From Roseimicrobium sp. ORNL1 (GTDB lineage: Bacteria; Verrucomicrobiota; Verrucomicrobiia; Verrucomicrobiales; Verrucomicrobiaceae): a DNA stretch of 64,000 bases. A model generated the notes under the pieces. It was not told where the DNA came from. It made no database searches and saw only the letters and a program-made list of their open reading frames with translations. The stretch spans positions 4,154,001-4,218,000 of the forward strand of contig NZ_CP049143.1 of NCBI RefSeq assembly GCF_011044495.1, given 5' to 3'. Shown here one piece after another: positions 7,180-48,440 of the stretch (position 1 is the stretch's first letter; each line of letters opens with the position of its first letter). The position numbers and the translations under genes were made by a program.

Positions 7180-8199
7180 ATGAAGACGTTACGCTCCCCT
7201 TTTTCGCGGCTGGCTACTGCACTGGTCAGCACCTTGTTCGCCTGTGCCCTGCAAGCACAGACGCTTCCGGACAAGCCTGTCGTCTCCGGCACGTTCCTCG
7301 GTGACGGCAAGGATGGGAAGATCCAGCATCTCGTGGTACAGACGCGCGAGCCTTTCAGTGACCAGCCCGCCATCCGCCTGGTGTTTACGGAGAAAGATCC
7401 GTCCTCATCCAAGAAGCCGGACTTCGACGCCGCTTTCAAGAAGCTGGGAAGCGCGCTGATCATCAGTGTCCATAAAGACGGCGGCATCTTCGGCTGCGAT
7501 GTCGCTCACACCGCGCACTCGAAATCCCCTTTTTCTTCCATCGGCAAGATCAAGATGAAGGAGTTCAAGGTGACGGAGACACATGTTTCCGGGACGTTAA
7601 GCACAGACGGCACCCAGGATTTCTTTGATCAAAAGTGGGATGTCGAACTCACGTTCTCCGCACCCCTACCGAAGGGAGCGTTCGCCGGCGAAGAGGAACC
7701 CAAGCCTGTTCCTGCCTCCTCATCCAAGAAGACCGCTCAGGAAGACGACAACGAAAAGCCAGCCTCCACCGGACCGAAGCTGGCGGTATCGCAGCTTCCC
7801 CTTCCCACAGCCGCACGCGACGTGGAGTACAAGAAAGTGGTGGGGCACATCGTGTTTCGTGCCGATGAAAGCGTGAGCGCCGTGGCAACCGACTTCTCCA
7901 AGAAGCTGAAACAGCAAGGTTGGCAGGACACGCCCGGCAGCTTGATTGGCAAGACCAATGCCATCCTTAAACGCAAGCTCAACGGCGCTGACCTGACAAT
8001 CATGATCCAGCCTGAGGGCAAAGGCTGCACCGCGAAGGTCTTCACGCAGGGACTCGATTGGTCCTCGCCTCCTGCTGCTACCACTTCCAGCAGCTCTTCC
8101 ACCCCACCTACCAAGGGCAGCGACGTGAAGGATATCGAAGACGAAGCCAACAAGCTACTCAACGACGCGCTGAAGAAGATTCCGGGTGGTCTCAAATAG
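7180..8199 (+). CDS. Secreted protein of unknown function
   Basis: 339 residues starting with a signal peptide ([20 protein letters not shown] then ACALQAQ cleavage region). The mature part has a first globular segment with alternating beta-like strands (residues about 30-165), a Ser/Lys/Glu/Pro linker near residues 170-200, and a second segment ([12 protein letters not shown] to VFTQGLDW) whose spacing resembles a small alpha/beta unit, then a Ser/Thr/Pro tail. No catalytic motif recognised. The ATG at 7180 gives the signal peptide directly. It is followed by its own hairpin terminator, so it is probably monocistronic. Confidence 0.75.
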
Positions 8200-8225
8200 C
8201 CCCTGTTACGAGAAACGGGGCTTTG
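8198..8225 (+). terminator. Probable terminator overlapping the stop codon
   Basis: agcccc(t)gtt at 8198-8207 pairs with aac-ggggct at 8214-8222, followed by a short ttt. The stem begins inside the TAG stop of the upstream gene. The T-run is short, so the terminator may be weak. Confidence 0.5.
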
Positions 8226-8382
8226 CCAAAGTGGCTCACGCTGCCCTCAGCGTGAACTGATGCAGGATCCCTGATCTCGCCATCATCCAAGCACTACGCA
8301 CAGAGACGCAGCGTCGGGAACGCAACCGACCGCCTTGAGATTGATCGCTCCACCGGCGAAAATATTCTCCACTGGCATCTTC

Positions 8383-9651
8383 CTACTTCGCCTGGGGATG
8401 TGTCGGCACATCGTGAATCACAACACCGTCCCGCGTTCCAGCAAGCACCGATGCCCTGGGCACAATCGCCGTGCAGATGGCTCCTCGGAAGTTCACCCCA
8501 TCGGGAGCCAGTCCAGCGACCTTCATATTACGACCGTGATCGTAGGTGACGATGTAATTGCCCGTTGGCTTGCCATCTGAACTCCGGTCAATCGACACCA
8601 CGAAATTCGCCATGTGCGTGCCCACGGGCGGCTCTCTCGGGTCAAACACCACCGATGCTCTCGTGCCATCTTTGCGAAAGATGGTAAGCGCGCCCTGCAT
8701 GCGGCCACGAGTGGGATTGTGTGCCACCACGACATCTCCATCGTGGTCCACCATCATGCCGTTGATCACGTTCTTGAGCTTCGGCACGCCTTCCGGCTGG
8801 TAGGGCACACCCCAGGTTCCCTGGCGTCCACGTTCCTTGCTGTCACACCAGTACATGCCGGACATGGCGCGGATGAGCATGCGATAGTGCCCCTGTCCCA
8901 GTGAGACAATAAAGGGATCGCAGAAGCCGCTGTTGTCGTTGGTATCCGGGAGATCAGGAAGCTGGGAAAGCAACTCAGGTGCAATGATATCACCCTCCTT
9001 GAGCGCGAGCTTCCACAAGCGCACGCCATCGTAGTCATGTGAAATCGCAGTCCCCTTTCGCAAACTCACAAAGCTGGGTAGCAACACGTCCGAGCCCACC
9101 ACGGTAGGCACACCCGCAGTGCCACGCCCAATGTAGCAACTGGGTCCCACGGCAAAGGTACCTCGTGTGCCCTTCTGCGAATTCCGCACCACGCAGCCGT
9201 AGAGGCTGTACCAGCCACGCTGAGGTCGTCCTCCGTGCACGGTGGAGAAGTAAACGATGGCATCACCATCCGCTGTCTGTCCGATGCGGGGATCCACCAT
9301 GCCGCCTGGAGCTTCAGGCGCGGGAGGTGGCACGAGGAAGAAGCCGATGTTCAGAGTCTTCCCCTTATCATCGGAGTAGTAGAAGGTCAGGTAGTTGGGT
9401 GGCCCTGCGCCATCTGTACCAGGAGGCACATTGTTTCGACCATAGGCTACATAACAAATGCGACCATTCGGCAACACCGTGCTCATCACGTAGAGCCGCG
9501 AGACGTACTGATCGTACGCGGCATCCGTGGAAACCACGAGAGGTGGCAACGCGCCGGCGGGTGGCAGTGGCGGCAGTGGCTTTTCAGCGAACGCACTCGC
9601 TGTCGAAACAAGCGCCAGCGCCAGGGCAATGTACGAGCGCAGTTGCATCAT
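8383..9651 (-). CDS. Secreted sialidase-like (BNR/Asp-box propeller) protein
   Basis: 422 residues from ATG 9651: MMQLRSYIALALALVSTASA is a clear signal peptide. The mature protein reads as a six-bladed propeller of the exo-alpha-sialidase/BNR type, with an Asp-box-like SDDKGKTL at about residue 80 and the repeating pattern of VDPRIGQTADGDAIVYFS and DHDGDVVVAHN segments. No full arginine triad of a true sialidase can be assigned by eye, so the substrate is unknown. It lies downstream of the DUF1592/DUF1552 pair on the same strand with a 65-bp gap, and may be transcribed with it. The frame is open further upstream but the signal peptide fixes the start. Confidence 0.75.
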   Translation of the reverse strand: MMQLRSYIALALALVSTASAFAEKPLPPLPPAGALPPLVVSTDAAYDQYVSRLYVMSTVLPNGRICYVAYGRNNVPPGTDGAGPPNYLTFYYSDDKGKTLNIGFFLVPPPAPEAPGGMVDPRIGQTADGDAIVYFSTVHGGRPQRGWYSLYGCVVRNSQKGTRGTFAVGPSCYIGRGTAGVPTVVGSDVLLPSFVSLRKGTAISHDYDGVRLWKLALKEGDIIAPELLSQLPDLPDTNDNSGFCDPFIVSLGQGHYRMLIRAMSGMYWCDSKERGRQGTWGVPYQPEGVPKLKNVINGMMVDHDGDVVVAHNPTRGRMQGALTIFRKDGTRASVVFDPREPPVGTHMANFVVSIDRSSDGKPTGNYIVTYDHGRNMKVAGLAPDGVNFRGAICTAIVPRASVLAGTRDGVVIHDVPTHPQAK

Positions 9652-46614: not shown

Positions 46615-47889
46615 ATGCCCCTTCGCCATTTCCTCATCGCATGCCTGCGCCCCCTCGTCTGCGCCTTCTGCGTATCTGGCTTTTCCATCCAAGGACACGC
46701 GCAGAATACGGACCCCTTCCCCACCCCGCTCAGCAAGAAGGGGCTGCAGGTACAGATGGTGGATGATGCGCTGGCGCTGGGTGTCCATCACGCTGCGGTG
46801 AATGTGAGCCTTGGCGCGCTGTTTCAGCTCGGTGAGAAGCCCGGAGAGCTGCGGTTCGATGCCGGATACCTCGCAAGTCTCGACAAACAAGTGAAGCCGC
46901 TCAGCGATGCCGGTGTGGTGGTGTATTTCATCCTGCTGGCCTATCCCACTGGAGATGCCGCGAAGGACGCAGTGCTGCTGCATCCCGCTCGCAGGAAGGA
47001 TGGAAAGTTCAACATCGCAGCATTCAATACCGCCACGGCGGAAGGCTTGTCCCTTTACCGCTCGCTCATCTCCCTCCTCGCAGAGCGCTACAGCGGCGCG
47101 CATCCGGAGCATGGCCGAGTGTGGGGTTACATCGTGGGGAATGAGGTAGACTCGCACTGGATGTGGTACAACCTAGGCAATGCTCCCATGACCCAGGTGG
47201 CCAGCGAGTACGAGAAGGCGGTACGCGCCACCCATGAAGAGGTGAGCAAGCACTCGGCTCACGGGCGGGTGTACCTGTCCTTCGACCATCACTGGAATAC
47301 CTCCATGCCCGGCATCAGCGCCGAGGAGGCGTGCAAGGGACGCGATTTGCTGGATACCTTTGCGAAGCTCGCGCGCGAACGCGGGGACTTTGAGTGGCAT
47401 GTCGCGCACCACCCGTATCCGGATGACCTGGGCAATCCACGCACGTGGCTGGACAAGGCGGCGCTACCCAATGTGGACAGTCCGCACATCACCTTCAAGA
47501 ATCTCGAAGTCGCCTGCGACTACATGAAGCGCCCCGAGCTTCTCTGGCAGGGACAGCCACGCCGCATCATTCTCAGCGAGCAGGGCATCCACTGCCTGGC
47601 TGCGCCGGAGGGCGCGGAGCTGCAGGCCGCAGGCTATGCTTACGCATGGGAGAAGGTGACGCGGCAGGCTGGCATCGACGCGCTCATCTGGCATCGGCAT
47701 GTGGACCATGCGCATGAGGGAGGTCTGCGTTTGGGCCTGTGGGAAAATCAAGCCGGGAGCATCGCGACACCGGGAAAGAAGCGTGAGATCTACGGGTTGT
47801 TTTTGAAGGCAGGTACACCGGAATGGACGGACTTGGCGAAGAAGTACCTGCCGATCGTGGGGCTGAAGTCGTGGGATGAATTGAAGTAA
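46615..47889 (+). CDS. Secreted GH-A-clan-like TIM-barrel protein (DUF5722)
   Basis: 424 residues with signal peptide (MPLRHFLIACLRPLVCAFC ... GHAQN). It has GH-A features: a Glu in GYIVGNEVDSHWMW as candidate acid/base at the end of strand 4, and a Glu in RIILSEQGIHC as candidate nucleophile at the end of strand 7, with HHPYPDD between. DUF5722 proteins are predicted glycoside hydrolases whose substrate is unknown. ATG 46615 is chosen for the signal peptide, though the frame opens earlier. Confidence 0.82.
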   Translation: MPLRHFLIACLRPLVCAFCVSGFSIQGHAQNTDPFPTPLSKKGLQVQMVDDALALGVHHAAVNVSLGALFQLGEKPGELRFDAGYLASLDKQVKPLSDAGVVVYFILLAYPTGDAAKDAVLLHPARRKDGKFNIAAFNTATAEGLSLYRSLISLLAERYSGAHPEHGRVWGYIVGNEVDSHWMWYNLGNAPMTQVASEYEKAVRATHEEVSKHSAHGRVYLSFDHHWNTSMPGISAEEACKGRDLLDTFAKLARERGDFEWHVAHHPYPDDLGNPRTWLDKAALPNVDSPHITFKNLEVACDYMKRPELLWQGQPRRIILSEQGIHCLAAPEGAELQAAGYAYAWEKVTRQAGIDALIWHRHVDHAHEGGLRLGLWENQAGSIATPGKKREIYGLFLKAGTPEWTDLAKKYLPIVGLKSWDELK

Positions 47890-47945
47890 GCCACTACCAG
47901 CCCTACCTTGACGGAGCGGCATTTTCGGCGACCTCGTTGGTTACT

Positions 47946-48401
47946 ATGGGCCTCGACTCTGTTGAACTTGTGATGGCTTGGGAAGAGGGATTCGGAATTG
48001 CTATCCCCAATGAGGTGGCAGAGGGCATGATCACGCCCGCTATTGTGATTGACTGGATCAGCAAGCGGGTGGGTGCCTCCGGGGAATGCAATCCCTGCTT
48101 CTCGATGGTGGGGTTCCACCGGATACGCGAGCAGCAATTCACCACTCATGGAATTCCCCGGCGTGCCGTGAGGCTGAATAGCTTGATGCCCGACGCATGG
48201 ATAACGTCCCACACCGTACGTGACGAAGTGCGATGCCGAGTCAGGACTCGTGCCATGGCATTGATAAAGCGGCGCAAGCTCGACCCTCGATGGAAGCGCA
48301 ATGAGGTGCGTGAAGTCGTGCGCGAGATTGTACGCGAGCAGATTGGCGTGCAGGAGTTTTCCGATAAGGATCACTTCATCCGTGATCTTGGGATTGATTG
48401 A
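47946..48401 (+). CDS. Acyl-carrier-like protein with its two halves in reversed order
   Basis: 151 residues from ATG 47946. It begins with the phosphopantetheine-site half of an acyl carrier protein, MGLDSVELVMAWEEGFGIAIP then IVIDWISKRV, where the Ser of LDS is the attachment point. A basic middle region of about 70 residues follows, and the C-terminus KRNEVREVVREIVREQIGV then FIRDLGID matches the N-terminal half of an ACP up to the DLGxD that normally precedes the Ser. The order is thus C-half, spacer, N-half. No clear ribosome binding site. It starts about 55 bp after the GH-like gene. Its partner enzymes are not evident here. Confidence 0.6.
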   Translation: MGLDSVELVMAWEEGFGIAIPNEVAEGMITPAIVIDWISKRVGASGECNPCFSMVGFHRIREQQFTTHGIPRRAVRLNSLMPDAWITSHTVRDEVRCRVRTRAMALIKRRKLDPRWKRNEVREVVREIVREQIGVQEFSDKDHFIRDLGID

Positions 48402-48440
48402 TCTGTGAGCGACACTGACGGGGCACAGCACCGTCCTCTC

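Follow-up and report, generated by a model that had tools for sequence, protein, structure and literature searches.

Few small proteins are as strongly conserved as acyl carrier protein (ACP). In AcpP of the type II systems, residues D38, V40, E41, M44 and E47 contact partner enzymes. Among the known systems closest to the protein reported here is DUF1493 (PF07377), which likewise has an ACP-like domain without the prosthetic Ser, but in which the helix order is normal. The PF07377 profile finds no match in our protein at E<=1 and none in its genome at E<=0.001. One DUF1493 protein (L056:8802-9155; DLGIDADDAEE, with Ala at the Ser site) is encoded by a gene next to a member of the family described below.

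The window, the whole stretch of 64,000 nucleotides from Roseimicrobium sp. ORNL1 that was analysed, contains the gene whose parts are as follows.

47946..48401, + strand: the complete gene, encoding 151 aa before its stop; the two parts of a permuted ACP-like domain A (A-II/III/IV ... A-I) flank a spacer, domain B.
47946..48083, + strand: ACP helices II, III and IV at the N-terminus, residues 1-46, with Gly2 at the Ser36 position (NCBIfam E 2.3e-12; PDB 2ehs E 3.8e-9; Foldseek).
48084..48293, + strand: residues 47-116, the basic spacer; this is probably domain B, another ACP-like domain that has degenerated, with normal helix order and, in this protein, no helix II (structure alignment and HHalign).
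48294..48398, + strand: ACP helix I and the loop to DLGID at the C-terminus, residues 117-151 (PF00550 positions 2-30; phmmer; HHalign 98%).
48399..48401, + strand: stop codon directly after DLGID; of 98 family ORFs, which include some duplicate loci, about 94 terminate within one residue of this point.

The preliminary description had claimed this 151-aa ORF, which is indeed present, and had read it as ACP halves in permuted order joined at DLGxD. The halves prove complementary. Residues 3-41 match ACP model positions 38-76 (NF002149, E 2.3e-12), and residues 122-151 match the N-terminal part of ACP, roughly its first 30 positions, up to DLGxD. Homology to acyl carrier protein (TIGR00517 / PF00550) thus extends over the whole domain, both halves matching, and in relatives too the PF00550 halves are complementary, the C-terminus covering positions 1-30 and the N-terminus 32-67. 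The helix order in the window protein and its relatives is II-III-IV first and I last, not the I-II-III-IV of ACPs. When the window sequence is rotated, phmmer returns a single full-length alignment with no gap at the joint, and the E value to 2ehs moves from 3.8e-9 in native order to 4.7e-15. The rotated window sequence scores 64.7 bits on TIGR00517, below the curated cut-off of 70.45; un-permuting L110, a member of 86 aa, raises its score from 67.4 to 83.8 bits, above that cut-off.

Two observations named beforehand as able to overturn this reading were looked for. The C-terminal segment might have been unrelated to ACP helix I, but HHalign gives it a probability of 98% for that helix. The true start might have lain upstream and yielded a normal ACP, but no such start exists; an in-frame stop lies upstream of the ORF, so a normal ACP N-half there is ruled out, and in the ortholog from a congener (L127) the M of MGLD is the sole possible start. 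A 213-aa ORF at 47790-48431 on the - strand overlaps the gene and is probably a chance ORF, since selection favours the + strand frame. The preliminary description also asked whether homologues keep the joint where it is, and nearly always they do. The permutation of the ACP halves is real, and there is strong support for the chain ends lying where ACPs attach phosphopantetheine.

Structure prediction of the single chain, proposed earlier as a check, gave a confident fold: AlphaFold, run on the window protein with 82 family sequences, returned pLDDT 94.9 and pTM 0.86. For the 86-aa member from L065, run with 9 sequences, the values were 91.1 and 0.82. Both Foldseek and VIA follow chain order and are unable to score a permuted match; nothing is proved by the absence of a fold from their lists. 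In Foldseek it is chiefly the N-half that superposes on ACPs, over 38-41 residues and for the most part within 0.4-0.9 A (for 1l0i, 3ejb and 2ehs, 38-39 residues at 0.4-0.6 A), which is what a permuted protein should show under a sequential aligner. VIA comparison of a compact model with ACPs over the whole length gives 2-8% identity, with Z of 4-6, weak for helical bundles, while the N-half of the window model alone gives 35-49%. This contrast between the models is compatible with permutation. The joint in the sequence, taken with the pTM, suggests that the termini close and rebuild one ACP fold.

The spacer is basic, as first described: a count by eye over residues 47-117 gives about 14 Arg, 3 Lys and 6 acidic residues. 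It had also been described as an insert linking helix 4 to helix 1; an insert does separate the halves, but it is probably no plain linker. The first part of the spacer, with the family consensus aFY.lR.aL....R..I.P.T.l..L.P....W..L....lP.L, aligns to ACP from helix I into helix II. A family profile of this region scores 66-79% against the ACP profile in HHalign, compared with 0.3% for the reversed control and 98% for the positive control, the profile of the C-terminal helix I. Residues 52-102 of the model align to whole ACPs (6lvu, Z 5.7, 51 residues, 2.3 A), where Z of 5-6 is within the chance range for helical bundles. With this moderate support, the spacer probably represents a further ACP-like domain (domain B), degenerate and with its helices in normal order; only a remnant of it would be left in the window protein.

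Family members fall into length classes of about 86-115 aa, with little or no spacer, 150-204 aa and 212-245 aa. Two hydrophobic stretches occur in the spacer in 30 of 39 members of at least 212 aa, and the 12 short members have not a single one; the sequences suggest that the spacer of long members probably contains a transmembrane hairpin. Domain B is optional, being absent from members of 86-90 aa. The tree, built on few columns and with many weak forks, implies several separate origins of compact members, with 7 changes of which at least 3 are forced, and the permuted domain A therefore looks like the functional core.

Relatives were collected with the pattern MGLD[GSA]VE[LI]V, which yielded 96, of which 80 were kept. 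Since the pattern forces the N-terminus, it inflates the conservation of residues 1-9, and the C-terminus serves as the independent test. Searches with profiles free of the pattern added relatives starting MGLE, MGMD, MGME, MGID and MGLDI/Y/L; most members start M-G, and V6 and E7 vary in members found by profile only. E13, the equivalent of E47 and outside the pattern, is invariant in 82 sequences. A single-sequence search of genome contigs found no relatives; the alignment-based search did find them. A divergent branch in Bacteroidota (L177-L181) lacks the MGLD start; in L178-L181 the Ser position holds P, R or S and the chain ends just before DLG. One contig carries two permuted genes in tandem (L050:7254-7940 and 8001-8693), 64% identical.

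Members occur in Verrucomicrobiota, Lentisphaerota, Kiritimatiellota, Planctomycetota, Bacteroidota and Pseudomonadota, and also in Thermodesulfobacteriota, Acidobacteriota, Gemmatimonadota, Cyanobacteriota and Melainabacteria, though many member genomes are metagenome-assembled and single phylum assignments may be wrong. In four phyla, matches at E<=1e-16, a threshold that misses compact members and lets in a few other ACP-like ORFs, were found in 9/294, 4/299, 7/296 and 9/288 genomes. With members in some ten phyla, the family looks conserved and horizontally dispersed, and a sequencing artefact is not a likely explanation. A canonical AcpP is encoded elsewhere in the window genome, so the window protein is not the housekeeping ACP.

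No neighbour recurs beyond near relatives. Those seen (GT2, PhyH, CobB-like, E1 dehydrogenase, 3HCDH and MoCo-binding) are each local, and since neighbours are not conserved, context gives no function. In two alphaproteobacterial contigs, a glycosyltransferase gene adjoins a compact member (L065:1798-2559, GT2 by Pfam; L081:7236-7997, with a similar start), on opposite sides of the gene. At L107:8610-9185, 16 bases downstream of a permuted gene, lies the gene for a putative SUKH-1 (SMI1/KNR4) protein, whose match is below the Pfam cut-off; SUKH-1 is a family often linked to toxin immunity. In Flavobacteriaceae, one member gene (L106) stands among 13 attC-like sites that share one strand and span 16 kb. 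Such an array is also seen in L099 and, in shorter form, in L103, and at L100:7824-8735 the gene is enclosed by direct repeats of 144 nt. Judged by these repeats, these flavobacterial copies look like residents of chromosomal integron cassette arrays. A search of the flavobacterial genomes for an integron integrase gave only matches below the family cut-off, and control genomes matched too. No flanking repeat was found that would place the window copy in a cassette. Viral contigs gave one weak hit, and plasmids one full-length distant copy, on a Persicobacter plasmid.

The N-half had been taken to carry the phosphopantetheine Ser, and here the preliminary description was mistaken. Alignment pairs DLGID-G-LDSVELVM with DLGAD-S-LDTVELVM, placing Gly2 at Ser36 and the Ser that was noted, residue 5, at Thr39. 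The window protein therefore cannot carry phosphopantetheine at the canonical site, and modification of that Ser by a PPTase, proposed as an experiment, has no target. Every M-G member found has Gly where ACPs have the accepting Ser of D-S-[LM]. That Ser5 is nevertheless the attachment site of an active carrier is very improbable: GLDS looks like GADS by eye, but the register in profile alignments and the variation in relatives (S 48, A 24, G 24 and T 2 among 98 family ORFs) led us to reject Ser5 as the prosthetic site. The C-terminal Asp was rejected as a chemical attachment point, the last residue varying among D, S, G, E, N and V. Chemistry at the termini could instead involve the amine of Gly2, which would stand at the place of Ser36 after removal of Met1, as normally happens at M-G starts, and could be acylated or otherwise modified, the acyl chain lying in the ACP pocket of a carrier without phosphopantetheine. 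Gly2 is kept in profile-found members though its neighbours vary, and the joint is fixed within one residue; but in the divergent branch the start is not M-G and the position holds P, R or S, no acyltransferase neighbour is conserved, and Gly2 may be structural. We regard this chemistry as improbable, and the fuller proposal, that the N-terminal Gly replaces the modified Ser and accepts an acyl or other group to make a carrier or lipid-switch protein needing no phosphopantetheine, as more improbable still.

A decaying pseudogene or chance ORF might be suspected, as part of the spacer domain is lost in the window member, but the likelihood of this is close to nil. The syntenic ortholog in the same genus is intact and 64% identical (dN 0.24, dS 1.2), dN is well below dS in every pair with computable dS, and the stop position is kept family-wide; the window gene is under purifying selection. 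Domain swapping, in a dimer or oligomer where each ACP fold receives helix I from a different chain, would suit the long inserts that part the two halves in many members; the compact members of 86 aa, whose linker is short, are confidently predicted as single chains, and swapping is distinctly unlikely. We consider it unlikely, too, that this is a selfish or conflict gene (a toxin, an inhibitor or an immunity part) carried on cassettes, its mimicry hitting fatty-acid synthesis or a PPTase. Its patchy distribution in the four phyla counted, the integron-like arrays in some Flavobacteriaceae and the variable neighbours speak for that reading, but no paired immunity or antitoxin gene recurs and the window copy is syntenic in its genus.

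The account we favour, to which we give about an even chance, is that of a conserved permuted family whose termini close to a Ser-less ACP fold and which acts as a look-alike toward an enzyme that has ACP as its partner. Such a rebuilt fold, unable to take phosphopantetheine at the canonical site, would not be a carrier. It would present helix II, acidic and hydrophobic and with the equivalents of the five AcpP contact residues kept, to an enzyme that normally binds ACP, and might regulate, block or scaffold that enzyme, in long members presumably at the membrane. The family could have arisen from a tandem ACP array that was cut off at the Ser codon at either end, so that II-III-IV / I-(II)-IV / I remained. 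In a family that is split at the attachment site and has no Ser there, but is kept by purifying selection and found in many phyla, the ACP fold's role in protein recognition would be separated from its role as a carrier; such a family might also lead to a naturally occurring regulator or inhibitor of fatty-acid enzymes or PPTases.

An open-access literature search, outside which most subscription journals fall, found no natural circularly permuted or Ser-less ACP family of this kind, and these proteins seem to form a family of carrier look-alikes that has not been described. Profile libraries give its proteins partial 'acyl carrier protein' matches, which mask the difference. The family is a variant of a known fold family; we do not file it among carrier proteins proper because its helix order and its residue at the Ser position, both checked, are not those of a carrier. 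With AcpP (TIGR00517, PF00550) the window protein shares homology of all helices, the recognition surface of helix II and DLGxD; it differs in the order II-III-IV ... I instead of I-II-III-IV, in Gly for Ser36 and in the extra spacer domain. Doublet ACPs (PDB 5y08, from the prodigiosin pathway) resemble it in having two ACP-like domains per chain but keep the normal order, unpermuted; a tandem ACP is the likely ancestor of the permuted family. For an ACP serving as a protein partner, precedent exists in the ACPs with structural roles in MukBEF, mitochondrial complex I and ISD11-NFS1, which, unlike the permuted family, keep the Ser and its phosphopantetheine arm.
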